Source: Citricoccus zhacaiensis (GTDB lineage: Bacteria > Actinomycetota > Actinomycetes > Actinomycetales > Micrococcaceae). Taken from it: a stretch of DNA of 64,000 nucleotides. The position numbers were made by a program, and so were the translations under genes. This document shows positions 13,499 through 28,342 of this stretch, piece by piece. The stretch lies in contig NZ_BMLQ01000004.1 of the NCBI RefSeq assembly GCF_014645315.1, positions 1-64,000 on the forward strand. Reading direction: 5' to 3'. The stretch's first letter is position 1. Each line of letters opens with the position of its first letter. The notes beneath the pieces were generated by a model. The model made no database searches and had not been told where the DNA came from. It was given only the letters and a program-made list of their open reading frames with translations.

Positions 13499-14482
13499 TC
13501 AGTCGGTGTGGTCATCGGGCAGAACCTGGGTCCCCACGCCCGCCGTGGTGAAGACCTCGAGCAGCATCGAGTGCGGCGCCCGGCCGTCCACGATGTGTGC
13601 CTGGGGCACGCCGCCGTCGACGGCCTGGAGGCAGGCGGCCATCTTGGGGATCATCCCGGCCTCGAGGCTGGGCAGCAGCTCGCGCAGCTCGCCGGCGGAC
13701 AGGGAGGAGACCAGCGATGTCCGGTCCGGCCAGTGGGAGTACAGGCCCTCCACGTCCGTGAGGACCACGAGTTTCGAGGCACCGAGCGCCACGGCCAGGG
13801 CAGCAGCGGCGGTGTCCGCATTGACGTTCAGCACCTCCCCCGTGGCCCGGCCGCCGGCGCTGATCTCCGGGGCCACCGAGGACACGACGGGGATCCGCCC
13901 GTTCTCCACCAGGTCCCGGATGGCACCCGGGTTGACCTGGGTGACCTCGCCGACCAGCCCGAGGTCCACCGGCTCGCCGTCCACCTCGGTGCCGGTCCGC
14001 TGGGCCTGGAACAAGGCGGCATCCTCGCCGGACATCCCGACGGCGTAGGGCCCGTGTCCGTTGACCAGGCCCACGAGCTCCCGGCCGACCTGGCCGGTGA
14101 GCACCATGCGGACCACGTCCATGGCCTCGGCGGTGGTGACGCGCAGTCCCCCGGCAAACTCTGATTCGATGCCCAGCCGGTCCAGCATGGCGTTGATCTG
14201 CGGCCCGCCCCCGTGCACCACAACGGGATGGATGCCGCAGTGGTGGAGAAAGACGATGTCCTCGGCGAAGGCCCGGCGCAGCTCATCGGACACCATGGCG
14301 TTGCCGCCGTACTTGATCACCATGGTGGTGCCGGAGAAGCGCTTGATCCAGGGCAGGGCCTCCACCAGCACGGCCGCCTTGGCGGCAGCACCGTCGGGGA
14401 AACCCGGAACGCCGGTGTTCCCGGTGCCGGCGGTCGTCCCGGTGGTGTCAGTAGCACCGGTGGTGTCAGTCATCTCGCTCAT
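13499..14482 (-). CDS. argB: Acetylglutamate kinase
   Basis: Phosphorylates N-acetylglutamate, the second step of the pathway. Amino-acid-kinase fold with [10 protein letters not shown] (phosphate-binding Lys), VVHGGGPQI and VLTDVEGLY. The 327 residues include a Thr/Gly-rich N-terminal extension of about 35 residues before the conserved [14 protein letters not shown]. The start could also be ATG four codons in (MTDTTG). The operon position after argJ is the usual actinobacterial one. Confidence 0.96.
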
Positions 14483-14490
14483 GGTGGCTC

Positions 14491-15651
14491 TCAGCTCGAA
14501 TACGCGGAGTTCTCATGCACGTAGTCGTGCGTGAGGTCATTGGTCCAGATGGTGGCGGTGGCCTGACCAGCGTGCAGGTCGATGACCACGCTCACCTCGC
14601 GCGGGGAGAGGTCCACGAGCTCGCGGTCCTCGCCCACCCCGGAGTCGCGGCAGACCTGGACTCCGTTGAAGTGCACATCGAGACGCTCGGCGTCGAACGG
14701 GGCCACCTCCTCCGGAACCGTGCCGACGGCGGAGATGACGCGACCCCAGTTCGGGTCCTGGCCGAACACGGCGGCTTTGAACAGGTTGGACCGGGACACG
14801 GCGCGGGCCACCGCCTCGGCGGCCTCCTCGGTGCTCGCGTTGACGACCTGGATGGAGATCTCGTGGGCGGCACCCTCGGCGTCGGAGATCAGTTGCCGCG
14901 CCAGGTCCGCGCAGACCGTGCGCAGGCCCGCCTGGAACTCCGCAGCGTCCGGCCGGGTCCCGCTCGCCCCGGAGGCGAGCAGTGCCACGGTGTCGTTCGT
15001 GGACATGCAGCCATCGGAATCCGTGCGGTTGAACGTGGTCCGGACCGCCTCGGTCAAGGCCGAATCCAGCTCGGCGGAGTCCACTGCAGCGTCGGTGGTG
15101 ATGACGCACAGCATGGTCGCCATGCCCGGCGCGAGCATGCCGGCTCCCTTGGCCATGCCCCCGATCACGTACCCGGGGCCACGGTGGACCGCGGTCTTGG
15201 GCACCGTGTCCGTGGTCATGATGGCCTCGGCCGCGTCAGCGCCACCGTCGGCTCCCAGTGCTCCCGCAGCGGCGGTCACGCCTGGGATCAACCGGTCCAT
15301 CGGCTGGGGCTGCCCGATCAGGCCGGTGGAGCAGACGAGCACGTCCCCGGCGGAGATCCCGAGCTGTCCGGCGGCATGCTCCGCGGTGGCATGCGTGTCC
15401 TGGAACCCCTGGTGGCCGGTGGCGGCATTGGCCCCGCCCGAGTTCAGCACCACGGCATCCACCCGCCCGTCCGCGATCACCTGGCGCGACCAGACCACGG
15501 GGGCAGCAGCCACCCGGTTGGACGTGAAGACGGCGGCCGCGTGGCGGTCCGGCCCGTCGTTCACGACGACGGCCACGTCCGGTTTCCCGGTCGACTTCAG
15601 TCCGGCGGCCACACCGGCGGCGCGGAAACCCTGGGCTGTGGTGACGCTCAT
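14491..15651 (-). CDS. argJ: Bifunctional glutamate N-acetyltransferase/amino-acid acetyltransferase
   Basis: Recycles the acetyl group from acetylornithine to glutamate and may also make acetylglutamate from acetyl-CoA. The 386-residue precursor should cut itself before Thr179 in [14 protein letters not shown], giving the alpha and beta chains with Thr179 as nucleophile. [15 protein letters not shown] follows in the beta chain. ATG 15651 is chosen because its ATGA overlaps the argC stop and because family homology begins at MSVTTAQGF; longer upstream extensions are argC in another frame. Confidence 0.95.
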
Positions 15652-16688
15652 GGTGCGATCCCCTGTTGGGTCAGGCCCGTCTCCTCGGCCAGACCGAGAG
15701 CGAGGTTCATGGATTGGATGGCGCCGCCAGCGGTCCCCTTGGTCAGGTTGTCCAGGGCAGCGGTGATGATGACGCGGCCGGCGTGCGCGTCCACGGCCAG
15801 CTGCATGACCACGTGGTTGGAGCCCAGCACGGACTGGGTGGTCGGCCACTGCCCCTCAGGCAGCAGGTGCACGAACCGTTCCTTCCCGTAGGCCTGCTCC
15901 CAGGCGCCACGGACCTCGGCGGAGTCCACGCCGGGCTTCAGGCGGGCCGTGGCGGTGGCCAGGATGCCGCGGGGCATCGGCGCCAGCGTCGGGGTGAAGG
16001 ACACCGTGACGGGCTCCCCCGCCGCCTGCGTGAGCCCCTGCTCGATCTCGGGGGTGTGCCGGTGCCCGCCCCCCACGCCATAGGGGCTCATGGAGCCCAT
16101 GGCCTCGCTGCCCAGCAGGTGCGGCTTGAGGGACTTGCCCGCCCCGGAGGTCCCCGAGGCAGCCACGATCACGACGTCCTCCGGTGCAAGGACCCCGGCG
16201 GTGAAACCGGGGGCGAGGGCGAGCAGACACGTGGTCGGATAGCAGCCTGGGACGGCGATCCGCGACGCCCCGGCGATCTCCGCCCGCTGCCCGGGCAGCT
16301 CGGGCAGGCCGTAGGGCCAGGTCCCAGCGTGGTCGGAGCCGTAGAACCTCTCCCAGGCCTGCGGTGACTGCAGGCGGTGGTCCGCGCCGGCGTCGATCAC
16401 GAGGGTCCCCGGCGAGAGCAGCTCGAGTTCAGCGGCGATGGCACCACTGGCACCGTGCGGCAGGGCCAGGAAGACGACGTCATGGCCGGCCAGCACCTCA
16501 GCCGTGGTCTCCTGCAGGACGCGATCGGCCAGGGTATGCAGATGAGGCTGGAGGGCACCCAGACGCTCCCCGGCGTTCGAGTGGGCCGTGATGGCCCCGA
16601 TCTCCACTTCCGGGTGGGAGAGGAGGAGGCGCAGGACTTCTCCTCCGGCATATCCGCTGGCGCCGGAGACGGCAACTGTGAGACTCAT
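15648..16688 (-). CDS. argC: N-acetyl-gamma-glutamyl-phosphate reductase
   Basis: NADPH-dependent reductase of acetylglutamyl phosphate. The 346-residue protein has the nucleotide-binding [10 protein letters not shown] (8-17) and the catalytic Cys149 in VPGCYPTT. First gene of the operon. The ATG lies 6 bases after a good -10 box, so the mRNA is predicted to be leaderless, and no Shine-Dalgarno sequence is visible. Putative ArgR boxes cover the promoter. Confidence 0.96.
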
Positions 16689-16694
16689 GCGCCC

Positions 16695-16735
16695 ATGCTA
16701 GGTGAAATATGCAGTGTTGCCAATATTTATGCAGA
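16695..16735 (-). promoter_or_regulatory. argC promoter with two ARG-box-like sites
   Basis: On the minus strand the -35 TTGGCA (complement of 16718-16723) and -10 TAGCAT (complement of 16695-16700) are 17 bases apart. The start codon follows 6 bases after the -10. Two AT-rich half-palindromic boxes ending in TATGCAG (16701-16714 and 16719-16734) overlap the promoter, about 18 bases apart as in classical paired ARG boxes. ATATTTATGCA is identical to the argG site. Confidence 0.65.
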
Positions 16736-16797
16736 GTTGGGCTGCCGTACACGCATCACCGCCCCATAGGCCGCCGGGCGCGACTACGGTAGGCACC

Positions 16798-17793
16798 ATG
16801 ACCGAGACTCCCCTCCCCAGCACCCAGCATGCCATTCGCGTCCACGCCTCCGGGGGGCCCGAGGCACTGCAGTGGACGGAGGTCCCCGTCCCTTCGCCGG
16901 GCCCCGGAGAGGTCCTGGTCAGGACGGCGGCCGCGGGCCTGAACTTCATTGAGACCTACCAGCGCTCGGGCGTGTACCGGATGTCCCACCCGTTCACACC
17001 CGGCTCCGAGGGATCGGGGACAGTGGTCGCCCTCGGCCCCGAGGCCGACGGTGCGTCCGCGGCGGTCGGCGATGTGGTCGCCACGGCGGCAGGTTCCGGG
17101 ACCTACGCCGAATACTTCACCGCCCCGGTGGACCAGTTGCTGCCGGTGCCGAGCGGAGTGGACCCGGCGGAGGCCGCGGCCATCCCCCTTCAGGGCATGA
17201 CTGCCCACTACCTGTGCCGGTCCACCGTGGAGGTCCAGCCGGGCCAGACAGTCCTCGTCCATGCCGGTGCCGGAGGCGTGGGCCTGCTGCTGACCCAGCT
17301 GTGCGTGTCCCACGGCGCCACCGTCATCACCACGGCCTCCACCGAGGAGAAGAAGGCACTCTCCCGCGCGGCGGGCGCCAGCCACGTCCTCGACTACTCG
17401 GGGTTTGCCGACGCCGTGCGGGACCTCACCGGTGGACGCGGCGTTGACGCCGTGTTCGACGGGGTCGGCCGGGACACATTCGACGAGTCCCTGGCCTCCC
17501 TGCGGATCCGTGGAACCCTGGCCCTCTTCGGTGGCGCCTCGGGGCCGGTGCCCCCGCTGGACCCCCAGCGCCTCAACTCCGCCGGCTCGGTGTTCCTCAC
17601 CCGCCCCACCCTGGTGCACCACACCTTGACCGCCGAGGAGACCCGGTGGCGGGCCCAGGAACTGTTCTCCGCCCTCGACGCCGGCACCCTCGACTTCCGG
17701 ATCGGAGCGACGTACCCCCTGGCCGAGGCAGGCCGGGCGCACGGGGACCTCGAATCCCGCCGCACCACAGGAAAGTCCCTGCTGCTGCCGTAG
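16798..17793 (+). CDS. Quinone oxidoreductase-like zinc-independent dehydrogenase
   Basis: Medium-chain dehydrogenase/reductase of the NADPH:quinone reductase branch, 331 residues. The N-terminal GroES-like domain has GLNFIETYQRSG in place of zinc ligands. The Rossmann segment VLVHAGAGGVGLLLTQL is near 156-172, and DAVFDGVGRDTFDESLASL follows. No catalytic-zinc Cys/His set is present, as expected for QOR. ATG 16798 is chosen by homology. It diverges from argC with about 110 bases between them. A weak hairpin (17803-17820) follows. Physiological substrate unknown. Confidence 0.88.
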   Translation: MTETPLPSTQHAIRVHASGGPEALQWTEVPVPSPGPGEVLVRTAAAGLNFIETYQRSGVYRMSHPFTPGSEGSGTVVALGPEADGASAAVGDVVATAAGSGTYAEYFTAPVDQLLPVPSGVDPAEAAAIPLQGMTAHYLCRSTVEVQPGQTVLVHAGAGGVGLLLTQLCVSHGATVITTASTEEKKALSRAAGASHVLDYSGFADAVRDLTGGRGVDAVFDGVGRDTFDESLASLRIRGTLALFGGASGPVPPLDPQRLNSAGSVFLTRPTLVHHTLTAEETRWRAQELFSALDAGTLDFRIGATYPLAEAGRAHGDLESRRTTGKSLLLP

Positions 17794-17969: not shown

Positions 17970-20900
17970 GTGTCCCCGTATGTGCCCCAGTTGCCCTCCG
18001 CTGAGAAGGCCCCTCCGGTCCGGACCCTGGTCCGTCTGCTGGAGGCCACCGCCCAGCAGCATCCCGAGGCGCCGGCCCTGGACGACGGAGAGACCGTCCT
18101 GTCCTACGCGGAGCTGCTGGACGAGGTGAAGGTAACAGGCCGAGCCCTGCACAGTGCCGGCCTCGGCGCCGGGGACCGGATCGGCATCCGCATCCCGTCC
18201 GGAACGGTGGAGCTCTACGTCTCCATCCTGGCCACCCTGTACATCGGTGCCGCCTACGTCCCGGTGGACGCGGACGACCCGGACGAAAGGGCCCGGCTGG
18301 TGTTCTCCGAGGCCAAGGTGGCCGCCATCCTCTCCGGTCAGGGCCGGGTGCAGACGTCCTCGAAGCGGCCCAAGCCGTTCCCCAGCCCCCGTCCACCCGG
18401 GCCGGAGGACGATGCCTGGATCATCTTCACCTCCGGGTCCACCGGCACGCCCAAGGGCGTGGCCGTCACCCACCGCAACGCCGCGGCCTTCGTGGACGCT
18501 GAGGCGCGCATCTTCCTCCAGGACGACCCTCTCGGCCCGGGCGACCGTGTTCTGGCCGGGCTCTCCGTGGCATTTGATGCCTCCTGCGAGGAGATGTGGC
18601 TGGCCTGGCGCCATGGTGCCTGCCTCGTCCCCGCCCCGCGCTCCCTGGTCCGCTCCGGCATGGACCTCGGCCCCTGGCTCGTCTCCCGTTCCATCAACGT
18701 GGTGTCCACGGTGCCGACGCTGGCCGCCCTGTGGCCCCCGGAGGCCCTGGAGAACGTGCGGCTGCTGATCTTCGGCGGTGAGGCCTGCCCGCCGGACCTG
18801 GCCGCCCGCCTGGCCGAGGACGACCGTGAGCTCTGGAACACCTATGGGCCCACCGAGGCCACCGTGGTGGCCTGCGCAGCCCCCATGGACGGCACCGGGC
18901 CGGTAAGCATCGGCCTGCCCCTGGACGGCTGGGACCTGGCCATCGTGGACCCGGCCACGGGGATCCCCGTGGCCGAGGGCGAGACCGGCGAGCTCATCAT
19001 CGGCGGGGTCGGCCTGGCCCGCTATCTCGACCCGGCCAAGGACGCAGAGAAGTATGCCCCGATGAAGTCCCTCGGGTGGGAGCGCGCCTACCGTTCCGGG
19101 GACCTCGTCGTCTGGGACCCGGAGGGCCTGTTGTTCGTGGGCCGCGCCGACGAACAGGTCAAGCTCGGTGGCCGCCGCATCGAACTCGGAGAGATCGATG
19201 CGGCCCTCCAGGCCCTGCCGGGCGTCGCCGGCGGGGCCGCCGCAGTCCAGACGACCACAGCCGGAACCCAACTGCTCATCGGCTACCTGGCGGTGCCGGC
19301 GTCGACGACGGAACACGGGGAACCCGACTTGAAGGCCTTCCGCCGGATCCTCGAGAAGGAACTGCCCGGAGCACTGGTCCCCCGTCTGGTCACGGTGCAG
19401 ACCCTGCCCACCAAGACCTCCGGCAAGGTGGATCGCAAGGCCCTGCCGTGGCCGTTGCCAGGCCAGGCCGGACAGGGCTCCGGCCACGGCGGCTCCGGCC
19501 CCAACTCCGACCTCCCCATGGATCCCGAGTCCCCCGGCGGCTGGGTACTGTCCCAGTGGTCCGACGTGCTCGGCGTGGCCCCGGAGGACCTGGACACCGA
19601 CTTCTTCACCTCCGGCGGCGGCTCCCTGGCGGCTGCACAGCTGGTGTCCCGCCTGCGCACCCGTTACCCCTCCGTCACCGTGCGGGACATCTACGCCCAC
19701 CCCCGTGCCGGCGCTCTGCTGGAGGCCGTGACCGGCAACGACGGCCGGCCGGCCGAACCGGCCGAGCCCGTGGAACCGCGTCCCGTGGTGCGCACCGCAC
19801 GCAAGGCCCAGGTCTTCCAGACGCTGATGGGCATCCCCCTGGTCATCCTCGTGGCCCTGCGCTGGGTCGTCTACCTGGCCGCCGGGTCCAAACTGGCCGC
19901 GGCCTGGGGCGTCCTGCCCGGGGCACCAACCGTCTCCTGGTGGTGGGTGCTGGCCGGCTGGCTGCTCTTCGTCTCCCCGCCGGGGCGCATGGCGATCTCC
20001 GTGGTGGCGGCCCGGCTGCTGCTGCGCGGGATCCAACCCGGCTCCTACCCCCGATCCGGCAAGGTCCATCTCCGCCTGTGGCTGGCGCAGCACATCTCCG
20101 ACCTCGTGGACCCGGTGTCCCTGGGCGGCGCCCTGTGGGTCCCCACCTACGCCCGGTTGCTCGGTGCCCGGATCGGCAAGCACGTGGACCTGCACTCGGT
20201 CCCGCCCATCACGGGGCTGTTGGACCTCGGTTCCGGCACCTCCATCGAGCCCGAGGTCGACCTGTCCGGTTACTGGATCGACGGTGACGTGGTGCACGTC
20301 GGCGCCATCACTGCCGGCGAGGACGCCGTGGTCGGTTCCCGTTCCACGCTGATGCCCGGCGCCGTCATCGGCACCGGGACCGTCATCCAGCCCGGCTCCA
20401 CGGTGACCGGGAAGACCAAGGACGGCCTCGAGTACGCCGGTTCCCCCGCCCAGCGCCTCGGCAAGGCCAAGTACGACGGCCCGAACATCGACCCGCCGCG
20501 GGCCACCGGCTGGCTCGTGCTGTCCACCATCGGTTCCGGCGTCCTGGCCCTGTTGCCGGTGGCCGCGGCGTTGACAGCTGCCCTGGTGGGCCTGTGGTCA
20601 CTGGCCTGGTGGCCGGACTGGCAGTCCGGCGGGGCCGGCGCGGCCCCGGAGACCGCACTCGGCTCCGCCTGGCGGCTGTTGGCCGCCAGCCCCCTGATCG
20701 CCGCCGTGTGGTTCGGTGCGAACATGCTCTTCACCGTGGTGTCCGTGCGGCTGCTGTCCCTCGGCGTCGCCGAGGGCTACCACGCCGTCCGCTCCCGCAT
20801 CGGCTGGCAGCTGTGGGCCACGGAACGCGTCCTGGACACCGCCCGTGACCTGCTCTTCCCGCTGTATGCCTCCCGGTTCACCCCGGTGTGGCTGCGCTGG

Positions 20901-22118
20901 CTGGGGGCCGAGGTCGGCGCCAACGTGGAGGCGTCCACCGTCATCCTGCAGCCGGCCCTGACCCAGATCGGCGATGGCGCCTTCCTGGCCGATGACACCA
21001 TGATCGGCTCCTACGAGCTGCAGCGTGGCTGGATGTACGTGGGCCAGGCGAAGGTCGGCAAGAAGTCCTTCGTCGGCAACTCCGGCATGGTCGCCGCCGG
21101 GCGCAAGCTCTCCAAGAACGCCCTCGTGGCCGTGCTGTCCGCCACCCCGAAGAAGACCAAGGCCGGCTCCTCGTGGCTGGGCTCCCCGCCCGTGCGCCTG
21201 CGCCGGACCGAGGTCGAGGCCGACGACGCCCTGACCTATGATCCGCCGGCGCGGCTCAAGCTGGTGCGCAGCGCCTGGGAGTCCCTGCGCCTGCTGGCCG
21301 TCTGGTGCTCCGTGGTCATTGCCGTGGCCGTGGTGGTCGCCCTCGACGGACTCGCCCAGCTGGGCGGCGGGGCCGCAGACGGGGCCGGGCCCGGAGGCTG
21401 GTGGCTCGCCATCGTGCTCGGCGGAGTGGTGCTCATGGCCGCCGGCGCGTTGGCGGCCGGCTCCTCCGTCCTGGCCAAGAGGGTCCTCGTCGGCCGGATC
21501 AAGGCCGGCGAGCACCCCCTTTGGAGCTCCTTCATCTGGCGCAACGAGGTGGTGGACAACTTCATCGAGGTGGTCTCCGCCCCGTGGTTCGGGCGGATCG
21601 CCTCCGGCACGCCCTCCCTCGTCTGGTGGCTGCGCGCCCTCGGAGCCCGGATCGGCCACGGCGTGTGGTGCGAGTCCTACTGGCTGCCCGAGGCCGACCT
21701 GGTGACCCTGGGCGACTCCTCGACCGTGAACAGGGGCTGTGTGGTCCAGACCCACCTGTTCCATGACCGCGTCATGTCCCTGGACACCGTGCAGCTGGGC
21801 GAGGGTTCGACCCTCGGTCCCAACTCGGTGATCCTGCCTGCGGCCTCCATCGACGACGGCGCCACGGTGGGCGCCGGATCGCTCATCATGCGCGGTGAGA
21901 TGGTCCCGGGCCACTCCTGGTGGACCGGCAACCCGGTGGCCCCGTGGAAGGGGCCGAAGGTGAAGGGCCGCGCTGCGGCCATCACTAGACTGGAACGGCT
22001 CGAGGAGAAGGCCGAGAAGGCAGCCGAGAGGGCCGCCGCAAGGCGAGCCGCCGAACGAGACGCCGAGACAACAGCCGCGACTGCGGCCGAAGACCCTGAG
22101 GAGCACAGCCGCCCGTGA
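17970..22118 (+). CDS. Pls/PosA-type membrane-bound NRPS (poly-amino-acid synthetase)
   Basis: Single-module, membrane-embedded peptide synthetase of 1382 residues. Order: adenylation domain (about 15-495: FTSGSTGTPKGVAVTH, FDAS with Asp203, NTYGPTEATVV, YRSGDL, catalytic Lys486 in TSGKVDRKAL), carrier domain with phosphopantetheine Ser552 in SGGGSLAAAQL, then three repeats of two membrane helices plus a left-handed beta-helix acyltransferase-like domain (helices near 618-676, 847-925 and 1105-1165; soluble parts near 690-830, 970-1085 and 1200-1330), and a charged Ala/Glu/Arg coiled-coil tail. This is the architecture of epsilon-poly-L-lysine synthetase, where the soluble repeats act like condensation domains and set chain length. 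Pocket residues read DAESIGTVVK, suggesting a basic amino acid such as lysine. GTG start, weak ribosome site; stop overlaps the next gene. Confidence 0.88.
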   Translation: MSPYVPQLPSAEKAPPVRTLVRLLEATAQQHPEAPALDDGETVLSYAELLDEVKVTGRALHSAGLGAGDRIGIRIPSGTVELYVSILATLYIGAAYVPVDADDPDERARLVFSEAKVAAILSGQGRVQTSSKRPKPFPSPRPPGPEDDAWIIFTSGSTGTPKGVAVTHRNAAAFVDAEARIFLQDDPLGPGDRVLAGLSVAFDASCEEMWLAWRHGACLVPAPRSLVRSGMDLGPWLVSRSINVVSTVPTLAALWPPEALENVRLLIFGGEACPPDLAARLAEDDRELWNTYGPTEATVVACAAPMDGTGPVSIGLPLDGWDLAIVDPATGIPVAEGETGELIIGGVGLARYLDPAKDAEKYAPMKSLGWERAYRSGDLVVWDPEGLLFVGRADEQVKLGGRRIELGEIDAALQALPGVAGGAAAVQTTTAGTQLLIGYLAVPASTTEHGEPDLKAFRRILEKELPGALVPRLVTVQTLPTKTSGKVDRKALPWPLPGQAGQGSGHGGSGPNSDLPMDPESPGGWVLSQWSDVLGVAPEDLDTDFFTSGGGSLAAAQLVSRLRTRYPSVTVRDIYAHPRAGALLEAVTGNDGRPAEPAEPVEPRPVVRTARKAQVFQTLMGIPLVILVALRWVVYLAAGSKLAAAWGVLPGAPTVSWWWVLAGWLLFVSPPGRMAISVVAARLLLRGIQPGSYPRSGKVHLRLWLAQHISDLVDPVSLGGALWVPTYARLLGARIGKHVDLHSVPPITGLLDLGSGTSIEPEVDLSGYWIDGDVVHVGAITAGEDAVVGSRSTLMPGAVIGTGTVIQPGSTVTGKTKDGLEYAGSPAQRLGKAKYDGPNIDPPRATGWLVLSTIGSGVLALLPVAAALTAALVGLWSLAWWPDWQSGGAGAAPETALGSAWRLLAASPLIAAVWFGANMLFTVVSVRLLSLGVAEGYHAVRSRIGWQLWATERVLDTARDLLFPLYASRFTPVWLRWLGAEVGANVEASTVILQPALTQIGDGAFLADDTMIGSYELQRGWMYVGQAKVGKKSFVGNSGMVAAGRKLSKNALVAVLSATPKKTKAGSSWLGSPPVRLRRTEVEADDALTYDPPARLKLVRSAWESLRLLAVWCSVVIAVAVVVALDGLAQLGGGAADGAGPGGWWLAIVLGGVVLMAAGALAAGSSVLAKRVLVGRIKAGEHPLWSSFIWRNEVVDNFIEVVSAPWFGRIASGTPSLVWWLRALGARIGHGVWCESYWLPEADLVTLGDSSTVNRGCVVQTHLFHDRVMSLDTVQLGEGSTLGPNSVILPAASIDDGATVGAGSLIMRGEMVPGHSWWTGNPVAPWKGPKVKGRAAAITRLERLEEKAEKAAERAAARRAAERDAETTAATAAEDPEEHSRP

Positions 22119-23677
22119 GTGTGGAAACCCCGGTTCTGCCCGATCCGTACATCCCTGGATCGGGGACGCCGGACTTCACGGTGGGCCACTACGACCTGCA
22201 GCTGGAGGTCAAGCTGGCCGCCAACCGGATCGCCGGGAAGGCCCGCCTCGACGGGACCGTCCTGCGGCCGGCCAAGCGGATCGAGCTCGATCTGCATGAG
22301 CTCTCGGTCAGCAAGGTCACCGCTGCCTCGGAGGGCCGTACCGTGAAGGTCGCCAAGTCCGCTGCGCGCCGAGGCCGGCTGGTCGTCGACCTGGCCACCA
22401 GGCTCGACGCCGGTGCTCCCCTGACCCTCGAGGTCACCTACGCAGGGGTGCCGAAGATGCTGGACGGGCCATGGGGTGAGATCGGCTGGGAAGAACTGGA
22501 CGACGGGGTGCTGGTGGCGGGCCAGCCCAATGGCGCGGCCACCTGGTTCCCGTGCGTGGACCACCCGTCCGTGAAGTCCACCTACCACTTCACCGTGGCC
22601 ACGGATGCCGGATACCTGCCGGTCTGCAACGGCCTGCCCACCGGTCACCGCCGCCGGTCCTCCCGTGAGGAGTGGACCTGGGAGCTGCGTGACCCGGCCC
22701 CCACCTACCTGGTCACCCTGCAGATCGGCCGGTACCAGCTGGTCGCCGTGCCGGAACACCCCACGGGGCGCCACCGCGCCACCGGCCCCTTCCGGCAGCG
22801 GGTGCGGGGCCTGGTGCAGGACCTGCTGCCGGGCACGGACGGGGACTGGCGTCCCGGTCATGCCCCGGAGAGCGGAGACGGCCAGGAGGACCAGGGCCGG
22901 TACGAGGACGAGGGCCAGCGCGAGGGCGAGGGCCACGACGAGATGGGCCTTGCGGGCGTGGCCGACCACGAGCCGGCTCCCGTGTTCCTGGCAGTATCCC
23001 CGGCCCTGCAGGACCGCGCCCTGGAGGCCCTGGGGCGGCAGACCGAGATGATGGCGTGCTTCAGCTGGCACTTCGGTCCCTACCCCTTCGACCGGTACAC
23101 GGCCGTGGTGACGGACGACGTGCTGGAGATCCCGCTGGAGGCGGCGTCCCTGTCCATCTTCGGGGCCAATCACCTGACGGGTTCCTGGGCCGCCGAGCGG
23201 CTGGTGGCCCACGAGCTGGCGCACCAGTGGTTCGGCAACGCGCTGACCCTGCGACGATGGCAGGACATCTGGTTGCACGAGGGGTTCGCCTGCTACAGCG
23301 AATGGCTGTGGGGTGCGGAGTCGGGGCATGGCACGCTGACCTCGCTGGCCCGCACCGCCTGGCGAGGACTGGCGCTGAAGGCCAAGGACCTAGTGGTGGC
23401 GGACCCGGGGCCCGAGCTGATGTTCGACGACCGCATCTACAAACGCGGGGCCCTGACCCTGTTCGCCCTCAACCGGGCTGTGGGCGACGAGGTGTTCACG
23501 GAGCTGATCCGCTCCTGGGTGGCAGAGCACCGGCACTCCTCCGTGGACACGGGGATGTTCCTGGACCACGCCGACCGCCAGGCCGAGGCGGCCGGTCACC
23601 CGGCCGGTCATGCACGTGCGGTCATGCGGCCCTGGCTGTGCGAGTCCGCACTGCCGGCCTTCCCCACGTCACGCTGA
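22115..23677 (+). CDS. M1 family zinc aminopeptidase coupled to the NRPS
   Basis: Short M1 (gluzincin) metallopeptidase of 520 residues. An N-terminal beta domain (about 15-215) is followed by the catalytic domain with HELAH (zinc His366 and His370) and the third ligand Glu389 in HEGFA, exactly 18 residues later. The exopeptidase motif is IPLEAASLSIFG instead of GAMEN. A hydrophilic, Asp/Glu/Gly-rich insertion (about 240-285) splits the region between the two domains. No signal peptide is evident, so it is probably cytosolic. Its GTG overlaps the NRPS stop in a GTGA, so the two are cotranslated. In epsilon-polylysine producers peptidases adjacent to or associated with pls degrade or trim the product; this is the likely role, by inference. 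Confidence 0.88.
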   Translation: MSVETPVLPDPYIPGSGTPDFTVGHYDLQLEVKLAANRIAGKARLDGTVLRPAKRIELDLHELSVSKVTAASEGRTVKVAKSAARRGRLVVDLATRLDAGAPLTLEVTYAGVPKMLDGPWGEIGWEELDDGVLVAGQPNGAATWFPCVDHPSVKSTYHFTVATDAGYLPVCNGLPTGHRRRSSREEWTWELRDPAPTYLVTLQIGRYQLVAVPEHPTGRHRATGPFRQRVRGLVQDLLPGTDGDWRPGHAPESGDGQEDQGRYEDEGQREGEGHDEMGLAGVADHEPAPVFLAVSPALQDRALEALGRQTEMMACFSWHFGPYPFDRYTAVVTDDVLEIPLEAASLSIFGANHLTGSWAAERLVAHELAHQWFGNALTLRRWQDIWLHEGFACYSEWLWGAESGHGTLTSLARTAWRGLALKAKDLVVADPGPELMFDDRIYKRGALTLFALNRAVGDEVFTELIRSWVAEHRHSSVDTGMFLDHADRQAEAAGHPAGHARAVMRPWLCESALPAFPTSR

Positions 23678-24391
23678 CGCCGCGCGAGTTCCTTCGGACC
23701 CTGGCCCGGCCGGCGGCAGGAGCACGACGGCGCCGAGCAGGTGCTCGGGGGCATGGCCGCCTGGCCAGTCGCGGTCTGGGACGATGACGGAACCGGGCCG
23801 GTCCGGCACCGCCAGCTCCAGGGTCCCGGGCACCGTGACCGCCACGTCTGCCGGGTCGCCGGTGAATCCGGTGCCCTGGGCTTTGACGAGGGCTTCCTTG
23901 GCGCACCACAGCTGGCCGTGGGTGCCCGGGCGGACGTGATCCTCCAGGGCACCGAGCAGCCGCTCCTCCTCCGCGGAGAAGCCGACGCCGGCCAGTTCGG
24001 AGGGTGCGGCAAACGCCGCGGACCCTGCCTGCTCGAGATCGACCCCGATCCGCCAGCCCGCCGCCGTGTCCGACGCCCCGAGCCAGGCGGTGGCGAGCCA
24101 GCCTCCGGCCCGGCTGAAGCTCACGGCCGGCAGTGGCGCGGCCAGGTCCCCCGGTGCAAGCGCGTCCGGGCCCCGCCGGCGCCGGGCCAACCGGCTGTGT
24201 CGCAGCTCCGGCTGGCCGTGGTCCTCGGACCCGCACTGGGGACAGCGATGGGTGACCTCGAAGGTCCCCGGCCGGTGCCCCAGGGACACCGCAAGGAAGT
24301 CGAGGGCCTCACGGCGCTGGTCACCGGTCCGGGGACCGGTGACCACCACGTGCCATCCCGGGCCCGACGCCGGCCCGTCACCTGTGCCCAT
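23669..24391 (-). CDS. 4'-phosphopantetheinyl transferase (Sfp type)
   Basis: Transfers the phosphopantetheine arm of CoA to a carrier-protein serine. The 240-residue protein has the magnesium-binding GVDLEQ (near 121-126) and the family signature WCAKEALVKAQG (near 173-184). Three Cys/His residues near CPQCGSEDHG (about 43-52) are an added feature of some actinobacterial members. ATG 24391 is preferred (GGGAAAG about 8 bases upstream); a GTG at 24451 directly beside the pheT stop would add 20 residues. It follows pheT on the same strand and its 3' end overlaps the M1 peptidase gene by 9 bases. It probably activates Ser552 of the NRPS. Confidence 0.88.
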   Translation of the reverse strand: MGTGDGPASGPGWHVVVTGPRTGDQRREALDFLAVSLGHRPGTFEVTHRCPQCGSEDHGQPELRHSRLARRRRGPDALAPGDLAAPLPAVSFSRAGGWLATAWLGASDTAAGWRIGVDLEQAGSAAFAAPSELAGVGFSAEEERLLGALEDHVRPGTHGQLWCAKEALVKAQGTGFTGDPADVAVTVPGTLELAVPDRPGSVIVPDRDWPGGHAPEHLLGAVVLLPPAGPGSEGTRAASA

Positions 24392-24452
24392 GGTCCCTGC
24401 TTTCCCTGCCTGCCCTGCTGGCGGTGTCCCCGACCTCGTGGCCGAATACACG

Positions 24453-27092
24453 CTAGCGCTGGACGGCTCCGTGGCGCCGGGCGGCCAGCTCGGTGGCGGC
24501 CGTGCGGGCCGCGGAGGCCTCGTCCGCGGTCAGGGTCCGGTCCGGGGCACGGAAGCGCAGCGAGAAGGCCAGTGACTGGTGGCCGTCCTCCACGCCCTGC
24601 CCGGAGTAGACGTCGAAGAGCCTGATGTCCTCGAGCAGCTCCCCCGCTCCCTCACGCAGGGTCTCCAGGACGTCTCCCGCCACCACGTCGTCCGCGACCA
24701 CGAGGGCCACGTCCTGGCTGGTCAGCGGGAAGGTGGATATCGGCCGGGCCACCACCACGTCCTCCGCTGCGGCGATCAGGGCGTCCAGGTCGAGCTCCAT
24801 GGCCACGGTGCGGGCGGGCAGGTCCGCGTCCTCGAGCCAAGACGGCAACAGTTCCCCGGCCACGCCGATGACGGTTCCGTCGGCATCGGTGGCACCATCC
24901 GAACCCGCAGGACCGGCCAACCGCAGCTCGGCCGTGCGTCCCGGGTGGAAGGCCTGATGGGATCCCTGGGCGACCCGCAGGTCCACGCCGAGGATCGCTG
25001 CGGCGTCCAGGGCGGCACCGAGGGCGTCCTGCCAGTCGTACGTACCGGGTTGGTGGCCGGCACCGGGTGCGGAGTCGTGCCCCGTGAGGACGGCGGCCAG
25101 GTGCCGCGGCTGGTCAGGGATGCCGGCCTCCAGGTCCGCCAGCACCTCGTCCGCGGGGCGGGCGCCCAGTGGCGGGATCGTGGCCGAGCCCAACTGCTCA
25201 CCAGGCAGGAAGACCAGCCCGGACTCGTAGAGGGCCAGGTCCCGGAAACCGCGGGAGTGGTTGCGGCGGGCGATGTCCAGCAGCCCGGGCAGCAGGGAGG
25301 TGCGCAGGTACCCGAACTCGGCGGAGATCGGATTGGCCAGGTGCACCATCCTCTGCGCTGCGCCCTCGTCCGCGGTGGCGGAGCCGAAGAAGCGGTTCTG
25401 CGCCTCGGACACGAAGGGGTAGGCCAGCACCTCGGTCAGACCGGCGTCGGCCAGTCCCTGGACCACCCGGCGCCGGGCCGCCTGTTCCCGGGTCAGCCCG
25501 CGCCCCGGAGGGGCCACCGGGAGGGTGGACGGGATCTGGTCGTACCCGATCAGGCGGGCGATCTCCTCAACCAGGTCGTCCCGGATCTCCAGGTCGTGGC
25601 GCCAGGTGGGGGCGGTGACGGTGAAGACCGTCCCCGCCGGGCCGGCGTCGGGATGTCCTGCACACGGTGCCGTGCCGCGCTCGACCGTGGCACCCAGATC
25701 CCGCAGGGTGGTCTCGATCTGGTCCTCGGTGTACTCGATGCCCATGCGGGCCCCCGGGTAGGAGGCCGGCAGCTCGATGACGCTCGGCTCCGGACGGGTG
25801 CCCACCTCGGTGATCCCCGCGTCAGCGGTGCCGCCGGCCAGCTCGACGAGCAGCTGGACGGCGCGCTCGGCCGCCTCGTCCGCGATCTCCCAGTCCACGC
25901 CGCGCTCGTTGCGCTTGGAGGCCTCGGAGGGCAGGCGATGCCGGCGGCGGGTCCGCCCCATGGACACGGGGTCGAAGTGGGCGGACTCGATGACGATCGT
26001 GGTGGTGGACTCGGACACCTCGGTCTCGCCGCCGCCCATGACGCCGGCCAGGCCGATCGGTCCACGGTCGTCGGTGATGAGCAGGTCCTCGGCGGAGAGT
26101 GTCCGTGACTTGCCGTCCAGGGTGGTCAGCGTCTCTCCCTCGGCGGCACGGCGGACCACGATTGGGCCCTGCAGCTTCGCCGCGTCATAGAAGTGCAGTG
26201 GCTGCCCGAGTTCCCACATGACGTAGTTGGAGATGTCCACGGCCAGGGAGATGGACCGCATGCCGGCCAGGCGCAGGCGCTGGGCCATCCATGGCGGGGT
26301 AGGACGGTTCGGGTCGATGCCGGTGACGGTGCGGGTCACGAAGCGGTCGCAGCCGGGGACGCCGTAGATGGGGCGCTCGTCCTCCAGGCGCACGGGGTGG
26401 CCCTGGCCGTTCGGCTCGGGGGCCGTGACCAGGGAGGCCGGATCGGTGAAGGGCAGCCCGGTGGCGTGCGCGTACTCGCGGCCCACGCCGCGGATGGAGA
26501 AGGCATAGCTGCGGTCCGCGGTCACGTTGATCTCGGCGGCCTCGTCCCGCAGGTGCAGGAGGTCGTACACGTCCGTGCCGGGCTCAGGGTCGTTGCCGTT
26601 CTCGGGCGAGAAGCCGAGGGAGGACAGCACGATGATGCCGTCGTGGTCCTCACCCAGGCCGAGCTCGCGCGCCGAGGCGATCATCCCGGCGGAGAGGTGG
26701 CCATAGGTCTGGCGCGGGGTGATGCGGAAGTCACCGGGGAGCACGGCGCCGGGCAGGGTGACGACGACCTTGTCCCCCACCTGGAAGTTGTGGGCGCCGC
26801 AGACGATGCCCTGCACTCCGGAGGGGTCGATGCCCTCGCCGGACAGGGTCTGCTCCTGGCCTTCGGGCACCACGCGGACCTGGCACCAGTTGATGGTCTT
26901 GCCGTTCTTCTGCGGCTCGGGGACCATCTCCAGGACCTCGCCGACCACGAGGGGGCCGGAGAGCTCGTCCAGGGGACGGTGGACGTCCTCCTCCTCGAAG
27001 CCGACCCTCACGAGGTCGGCCATGACGTCCTCGGCGGTCGCGTCCGCCGGGACCGGGACATATTCACGAAGCCATGACAGCGGGATGCGCAC
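24453..27092 (-). CDS. pheT: Phenylalanine--tRNA ligase beta subunit
   Basis: Large subunit of the alpha2-beta2 PheRS. The 879-residue chain starts MRIPLSWLREYVPVP and contains the EMAP-like tRNA-binding domain (about 40-155), the B3/B4 editing domain, the B5 domain (about 440-530) and the C-terminal anticodon-binding FDX domain (about 785-878, FPLTSQDVALVV). It is somewhat longer than the E. coli protein (795) because of Gly/Ala/Asp-rich inserts. It follows pheS by 6 bases and is followed by the transferase gene. Confidence 0.97.
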   Translation of the reverse strand: MRIPLSWLREYVPVPADATAEDVMADLVRVGFEEEDVHRPLDELSGPLVVGEVLEMVPEPQKNGKTINWCQVRVVPEGQEQTLSGEGIDPSGVQGIVCGAHNFQVGDKVVVTLPGAVLPGDFRITPRQTYGHLSAGMIASARELGLGEDHDGIIVLSSLGFSPENGNDPEPGTDVYDLLHLRDEAAEINVTADRSYAFSIRGVGREYAHATGLPFTDPASLVTAPEPNGQGHPVRLEDERPIYGVPGCDRFVTRTVTGIDPNRPTPPWMAQRLRLAGMRSISLAVDISNYVMWELGQPLHFYDAAKLQGPIVVRRAAEGETLTTLDGKSRTLSAEDLLITDDRGPIGLAGVMGGGETEVSESTTTIVIESAHFDPVSMGRTRRRHRLPSEASKRNERGVDWEIADEAAERAVQLLVELAGGTADAGITEVGTRPEPSVIELPASYPGARMGIEYTEDQIETTLRDLGATVERGTAPCAGHPDAGPAGTVFTVTAPTWRHDLEIRDDLVEEIARLIGYDQIPSTLPVAPPGRGLTREQAARRRVVQGLADAGLTEVLAYPFVSEAQNRFFGSATADEGAAQRMVHLANPISAEFGYLRTSLLPGLLDIARRNHSRGFRDLALYESGLVFLPGEQLGSATIPPLGARPADEVLADLEAGIPDQPRHLAAVLTGHDSAPGAGHQPGTYDWQDALGAALDAAAILGVDLRVAQGSHQAFHPGRTAELRLAGPAGSDGATDADGTVIGVAGELLPSWLEDADLPARTVAMELDLDALIAAAEDVVVARPISTFPLTSQDVALVVADDVVAGDVLETLREGAGELLEDIRLFDVYSGQGVEDGHQSLAFSLRFRAPDRTLTADEASAARTAATELAARRHGAVQR

Positions 27093-27098
27093 GGGTGA

Positions 27099-28169
27099 TC
27101 AGATCTCCATTCCGAAGTGCTGGGAGAAGCGGACGTCGCCCTCGATCATGTCTCGCATGTCGAGGACCTCATTACGGAACATCAGGGTGCGTTCCACGCC
27201 CATGCCGAAGGCGAACCCGGAGTAGATCTCCGGGTCCAGCCCGGCGGCACGCAGCACGTTCGGGTGCACCATGCCGCAGCCGCCCCATTCGATCCACTGC
27301 GGACCGCCCTTGGCGCCGGGGTGCCAGATGTCCATCTCCGCGCTGGGCTCGGTGAAGGGGAAGAAGTTGGAGCGCAGCCGGATCGTGGCCTCGGGCCCGA
27401 ACATCTGACGGGCGAAGTACTCCAGCGTGCCGCGCAGGTCCGCCATGGTCAGGCCCTTGTCCACGGCCAGACCCTCGAACTGGTGGAAGACCGGGGTGTG
27501 GGTGGCGTCCAGCTCATCGGTACGGAAGGTCCGGCCGGGCGAGAGCACGTACACGGGGACGCCACGCTCGAGCATGGCGCGCATCTGCACGGGCGAGGTC
27601 TGCGTCCGCAGCAGGAGGTGGGATTCGGCAGGGTCCACGAAGAAGGTGTCCTGCATCTCGCGGGCCGGGTGGTCCGGCTTGAAGTTCAGCGCATCGAAGT
27701 TGTACCACTCCGACTCGAGCTCGGGCCCCTCGGCGATCTCCCAGCCCATGCCGATGAAGATGTCCGAGACGCGCTCCTGCAGCACGGACAGCGGGTGCCG
27801 GGCACCCACGCGCCGGCGGCGCACAGCCGTGGTGACGTCCACGGTCTCCTCGACGAGCATGCGGGCGGCGTGCTCGGCCTCGAGGACTTCGGTGCGGGCC
27901 GCGAGCGCCCGTTCCATGGACTTGCGGGCCCCGCCCATGAGCTTGCCGGCCACGGCCTTCTGGTCCTTGGCCAGCTTGCCGATCCCCCGGTTCGCCAGCG
28001 TCAGCGGCGCCTTCTCTCCCGTGTGGGCCAGTCGGGCCGCCTTGAGCTCATCGAGGTCGGCGGCGGCGGCGAAGGCCTCCAGGGCCTGCTCGACGGCGGC
28101 ATGCACCGCGGTCTCGTCGGCCGGGGAGATCTCCGGCCCGTTGGCGTCCGACTGGGGGGTTTCCGTCAT
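27099..28169 (-). CDS. pheS: Phenylalanine--tRNA ligase alpha subunit
   Basis: Catalytic subunit of PheRS, class II fold, 356 residues. The N-terminal coiled coil (about 15-90) binds tRNA. Motif 2 includes [20 protein letters not shown] and motif 3 is [16 protein letters not shown] prefer ATG 28169; a TTG three codons upstream has a ribosome site too close to be useful. pheS and pheT form an operon with the phosphopantetheinyl transferase behind. Confidence 0.96.
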
Positions 28170-28342
28170 GGTGGGCAACGACCTTCATGTCCTGAGGTTG
28201 CGAATGTAGAAAAACGTAGCTTTGCGGTTCTGACTTTGGGTGTGGCCACCCGCACCCGGCGGAAGGCCTTGGCCAGTCTAATGGCCGGAGAGCCGGCACG
28301 GCGTACCGACGACGTCTCGACCTGTCCGGGCAGAATGGGCCC

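Follow-up and report, generated by a model that had tools for sequence, protein, structure and literature searches.

The 64-kb window analyzed here (the whole 64,000-nucleotide stretch from the Citricoccus zhacaiensis contig) contains a synthetase gene, pls, followed by genes for a metallopeptidase and a phosphopantetheinyl transferase, and all three are present where the preliminary description had placed them. Open reading frame calls and domain matches agree with its account of a 1,382-residue A-T-C1-C2-C3 synthetase (17970..22118, forward strand), a coupled M1 peptidase (22115..23677, forward strand, 520 residues), and an Sfp-type 4′-phosphopantetheinyl transferase (23669..24451, reverse strand, 260 residues). 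Reading the sequence directly also recovered both overlaps reported earlier: the four bases GTGA shared by pls and the peptidase gene (22115–22118) and the nine bases over which the peptidase and transferase genes meet tail to tail (23669–23677). Upstream of pls are a quinone oxidoreductase-like gene (16702..17793, forward strand), which holds the same position in most family loci, and argC-argJ-argB (13499..16688, reverse strand). The other flank is formed by pheT-pheS (24453..28178, reverse strand). The names of these flanking genes are our presumption from reading the sequence rather than assignments from a family library. Between 17600 and 24600, no promoter-like sites were found (0.1 expected) and one terminator-like site was found (1.1 expected).

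The end of the locus had been set at 24391, where an ATG lies inside the transferase reading frame; the frame extends to 24451, leaving a GTG at 24451 and the ATG at 24391 as candidate starts. Matches from the same-genus genomes G060, G003, G082, and G119 begin at transferase residues 22–28, which fits the ATG, and the closest homologs (G102 and G034) match from residue 1.

The synthetase matches the NCBIfam family TIGR02353 (Pls/PosA) over the entire profile (1–695 of 695), scoring 679.4 bits against a cut-off of 423.1 (E = 5.8e-204). Pfam matches include an AMP-binding domain (PF00501, residues 24–351), a PP-binding domain (PF00550, residues 525–587), and hexapeptide repeats; no classical condensation or thioesterase domain is among the five families matched at E ≤ 0.001. 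Alignment to the closest solved structure, the A domain of an epsilon-poly-L-lysine synthase (7wew, 5e-198) that we take to be a Streptomyces protein, delimits an adenylation domain at residues 14–498 (18009..19463, forward strand). The thiolation domain at residues 525–587 (19542..19730, forward strand) carries the motif FFTSGGGS. Beyond it, TIGR02353 and hydropathy define a Pls C-terminal region (residues 615–1323; 19812..21938, forward strand) in which hexapeptide-type C domains lie between membrane segments. Six scan windows exceed the hydropathy threshold, two of which overlap (612–642), and the expected second helix scores 1.36, below the threshold, so that six helices fit the scan without being demonstrated by it.

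Ten substrate pocket residues were read from the adenylation domain at positions chosen by the Stachelhaus scheme: D203, A204, E207, S246, I267, G269, T291, V299, V300, and K486 (DAESIGTVVK). All ten are identical in the window synthetase, in 7wew, and in the 54 other loci of the same type from the family, and they are also identical in 80 named actinobacterial loci, the best 80 of at least 594 confirmed candidates. The PosA positions given in the accessible part of PMC10522769 agree in spacing with those used here. According to the same text, lysine-activating members carry Ala at the second pocket position, where PosA has Met218.

The peptidase is PldII-like and is composed of an M1 N-terminal domain (PF17900) and a catalytic domain (PF01433). 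It contains a YKRGA motif and the HEXXH-x18-E zinc site, which occurs in all 137 peptidase sequences examined, the window's included. GxMEN, which we take to be the exopeptidase motif of M1 aminopeptidases, has no match in the window peptidase; PLEAAS at residue 340 stands in its place, and M1 homologs mostly have P-L/I-E-A at this position. A hydropathy scan of the protein, in which the mean over 19 residues peaks at 1.13, reveals neither a hydrophobic N-terminus nor a membrane segment. Streptomyces albulus PldII is described in the accessible part of PMC9223678 as located outside the membrane, with modeled zinc ligands (D44, T45, D173, and K174) that do not form an HEXXH site. Location and ligands, compared by description and not by sequence, would both count against a PldII identity for the window peptidase. 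The tuning and disarming of the polymer proposed in the preliminary description is hypothetical: inactivating Pld and PldII left production and polymerization degree both unchanged according to an excerpt of a review (PMC8506220), and a CRISPRi study reports, in the text available to us, that pldII repression altered chain length (PMC9223678). Separately, the window peptidase has an acidic insert at residues ~240–285 that could bind a polycation; this insert is nearly full length in one homolog (L038), shorter in two (L039 and L040), and was not seen in eight other aligned homologs.

Conservation of the locus was assessed in a family sample of 120 genomes (species), the window's own included, using a threshold of E ≤ 1e-100 for Pls-like genes. 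Such genes are present in 65 of the 120 genomes and in 22 of 32 genera. We sorted the match list into two types, a division later borne out by neighboring genes and by a tree: type 1, to which the window belongs, occurs in 56 genomes, type 2 in 16, and both in seven. Besides the window, 54 type-1 loci were fetched; one genome (G067), whose pls is incomplete at the start of a contig, was left out. An M1 peptidase gene lies directly 3′ of pls in every one of the 54, with a four-base overlap in 29. argC is 5′ of pls in 47 of these loci, and 44 of them are flanked by argC and pheT at opposite ends. The distance from argC to pheT is 7.3–12.5 kb with pls present (18 of the 56 type-1 genomes). For genomes without type-1 pls, it was computed in 58 of 64 (two had no argC match, and in four the genes were split between contigs or pheT was incomplete). 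The gap is at most 4 kb in 45 of the 58 (median 1.9 kb) and 5.0–21.7 kb in the other 13, so short gaps are not universal. That it is mostly short without type-1 pls and 7.3–12.5 kb with pls suggests that the block was gained or lost as a unit.

Four same-genus comparisons, some covering only part of a gene, gave dN/dS values of 0.12–0.19 for pls, 0.19–0.25 for the peptidase, and 0.27–0.34 for the transferase, with 0.09–0.26 for pheT and 0.04–0.10 for argC as references. By these values, all are under purifying selection, the transferase least. Given the strength of the TIGR02353 match, the pls-peptidase order in all fetched family relatives, and a dN/dS that stays far below 1 in each of the three genes, the locus is not a product of chance. 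One genome has a second pls-like match (G055:C1:253805-254941) that covers query residues 10–390 only and is interrupted by an in-frame stop; it may be a decayed copy.

A wider scan of actinobacterial contigs yielded at least 594 confirmed relatives. The best 80 of these make up the named loci, which consequently favor close relatives and type 1 and span Arthrobacter, Kocuria, Brevibacterium, Nocardia, Rhodococcus, Microbacterium, Streptomyces, and others. Among these best 80 of at least 594, an M1 peptidase adjoins pls in 77, with a four-base overlap in 42 of the 77. Three Streptomyces loci (L167, L176, and L185) have the M1 gene adjoining pls. The only three of the best 80 in which no M1 peptidase was recognized downstream are from Corynebacterium (L169, L188, and L190) and form one clade.

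The transferase is distributed more narrowly. It matches PF01648 and carries GVDLE and WCAKEALVK, which correspond to the Sfp-type phosphopantetheinyl transferase motifs GVDxE and WxxKExxxK. Among the 54 family loci, a transferase gene is convergent and less than 1 kb from the peptidase end in 33, lies elsewhere within 7 kb in 12, and was not detected in nine; of these nine, L045 lies close to the end of its contig, L049 gives a tblastn match, and L088 gives a motif match. Among the 77 peptidase-bearing loci of the best 80 of at least 594, 23 have a transferase gene no further than 7 kb away, which in 18 is convergent and within 1 kb; some of the 54 scored as lacking it have little downstream DNA. 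Judged by record titles, 22 of the 23 belong to genera that we place in Micrococcales and one is a Nocardioides. The three-gene order of the preliminary description is thus borne out in relatives for the peptidase and holds only in part for the transferase (45 of 54 family loci and 23 of those 77 named loci). The transferase is a usual neighbor within the family and a lineage-specific companion, not a universal part. The comparative picture is one in which pls and the peptidase stay together, the transferase is lineage-specific, and the block resides mostly at one chromosomal place.

Less expectedly, a second Pls, 52% identical to the window Pls, is encoded on contig 3 of the same genome (G000:C3, L092 6525-13035). 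Its gene overlaps dapA by four bases, and dapA in turn overlaps a gene for a PF07786 HGSNAT-like membrane protein by four bases. This dapA scores 251 bits against TIGR00674 (cut-off, 206). A higher-scoring dapA, also over the cut-off, is on contig 1 (G000:C1:343891-346157) next to a divergent HGSNAT-like gene, which makes two places in this genome where dapA and the HGSNAT-like family meet. In all 16 type-2 loci, the HGSNAT-like gene is next in line after pls, within 1.2 kb, and dapA directly follows pls in eight. No peptidase adjoins pls in these 16 family loci; four have one 3.3–3.8 kb further on. Four Pls loci of ~50% identity with a distant peptidase were considered as split operons, and this was rejected, as they are type 2 with dapA and HGSNAT-like genes between.

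The pocket reads DAESIGTVIK in 13 of the 16 type-2 sequences and DAESIGTVVK in three, giving no indication of a different substrate amino acid for the second Pls. Identity to the 7wew A domain is 61.7%–68.3% for type 1 and 58.2%–66.8% for type 2, ranges that overlap. The pocket barely separates the window Pls from the second type, which, like the overlap in identity, counts against the epsilon-polylysine reading of the window locus. A FastTree tree computed from 154 sequences, with three distant members as the root, places the 16 type-2 sequences in one clade (support 0.986) outside the 135 type-1 and named sequences. Support for the branch that unites these 135 is 0.115, so the split between types is carried by the type-2 clade by itself. 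A third, distant type of the Pls family was seen at three loci (L109, L110, and L111, in G082, G119, and G030), 36.8%–38.3% identical to the 7wew A domain; its pockets are not lysine-like (DFECLSVVTK or DGESVSVVNK), and an HGSNAT-like gene adjoins one of the three.

The HGSNAT-like partner belongs to a broad family, matched in 36 of 346 genomes in a search of the phylum. Across 30 HGSNAT-like loci, besides the one in the window's own genome (L198), a Pls-like gene (37% identity) is directly beside it only in L199; another locus (L222) has a weak match to the A/T part of Pls only. No pls-dapA or pls-HGSNAT operon is named in the titles and opening lines of abstracts of the open-licence PMC papers that targeted literature searches listed. 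We tentatively raise, as a rather unlikely reading, that the genome has two separately evolved polylysine systems: the pls-pldII-PPTase locus of the window and the sister-clade Pls of contig 3, with a dedicated dapA for lysine-precursor supply and an HGSNAT/acyltransferase-like protein that may acylate or export the product, giving an undescribed modified lysine polymer. The second, differently partnered Pls is a concrete and testable route to such a possibly modified polymer.

The window itself very probably contains an epsilon-poly-L-lysine locus of the known pls-pldII kind. What is observed are its genes and their overlaps, the domains, the pocket residues, and the conservation. By analogy with characterized relatives, lysine would be the substrate, the product would be a polymer that is exported, and the peptidase would act on it. 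The preliminary description had proposed an epsilon-polylysine-like locus, and the evidence supports such a locus, with a peptidase like PldII: the pocket equals that of 7wew, and the biosynthetic reading is well supported by the four-base overlap of pls and the peptidase gene, which is the arrangement published for S. albulus pls and pldII (accessible part of PMC4361855). In such a system, the A domain would activate L-lysine, and the T domain would carry it as a thioester after priming by a phosphopantetheinyl transferase, in the simplest case the adjoining one. The membrane-bound C1–C3 domains would then add lysine repeatedly through epsilon-amide bonds as the chain exits the cell, and the translationally coupled M1 peptidase would trim lysines off the polymer and may help to protect the cell against its own product.

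Other explanations differ on the substrate, on the role of the polymer, or on the transferase. The Pls family includes enzymes that polymerize ornithine, diaminobutyrate, and diaminopropionate (PMC8117764 and the accessible part of PMC10522769), and the window enzyme could make one of these cationic isopeptides or one of beta-lysine; the pocket code may, by our own inference, fail to separate alpha- from beta-lysine. We regard a product of this kind as improbable, as the window pocket is that of 7wew and the three loci with different pockets are only 36.8%–38.3% identical to 7wew versus 61.7%–68.3% for type 1. A second alternative accepts polylysine and differs on its role, making it a conserved envelope, storage, or stress polymer, not a weapon, with a peptidase that recycles it. 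The argC-pheT placement in 44 of 54 family loci and the occurrence of type 1 in 56 of 120 genomes resemble the outcome of long-standing vertical inheritance, and hydropathy reveals no export segment on the peptidase. This role is nonetheless doubtful: type-1 pls was not found at the cut-off in 64 of the 120 family genomes and is therefore dispensable, and the polymer inhibits many bacteria according to a table quoted in the excerpted review PMC8506220.

The polylysine reading of pls and the peptidase would also stand if the transferase were a general activator merely sitting beside them. No transferase was detected within 7 kb in 54 of the 77 peptidase-bearing loci among the best 80 of at least 594, and in at least two family genomes without pls (G007 and G112) the stretch from argC to pheT retains a PF01648 match. 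Its convergent position less than 1 kb from the peptidase, seen at 33 of 54 family loci, speaks for a closer tie, as does a large NRPS on contig 1 with a PF01648 gene of its own ~3 kb from its last A-domain match. We treat the general activator as a real possibility that we do not favor.

The pls-pldII-PPTase locus is real, conserved, and ordinary for its group, and the copy in the window is apparently intact. Such loci had been described as documented mainly in Streptomyces, which would make one in a Micrococcaceae-like genome notable, and here the literature contradicts the preliminary description. The survey of Jiang et al. 2021 (PMC8117764) already lists pls in Arthrobacter, Glutamicibacter, and Micrococcus; the accessible part of PMC11078813 describes NAPAA (non-alpha poly-amino acid) clusters as shared among its Micrococcaceae strains; and epsilon-polylysine clusters are reported in Agrococcus and Microbacterium in the part of PMC12067966 available. 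The Micrococcaceae setting is therefore not new. Polylysine-type loci are common in this family, and with that a false surprise is removed.

Among known systems, the S. albulus pls-pldII locus, compared here from partial literature and not from its sequence, shares with the window the domain order, the peptidase gene adjoining pls, and the four-base overlap, and the pocket is shared with 7wew. The window differs in its convergent PPTase gene overlapping the peptidase gene and in a peptidase with no obvious export segment. The coryneform Pls of Corynebacterium variabile shares the family, the operon with a peptidase gene, and a lysine-type pocket. C. variabile pls led to epsilon-polylysine production in S. 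coelicolor, and in culture of C. variabile itself the polymer and the Pls protein both went undetected (PMC8117764); activity was shown there by heterologous expression, whereas that of the window locus is predicted. The Micrococcaceae NAPAA clusters, as far as the excerpt of PMC11078813 describes them, are of the same cluster class and from the same family as the window locus. PosA, the delta-poly-L-ornithine synthetase of Acinetobacter baumannii, belongs to the same synthetase family as the window Pls and, in the accessible part of PMC10522769, differs from it by Met in place of Ala at the second pocket position, an ornithine substrate, and a single-gene operon.
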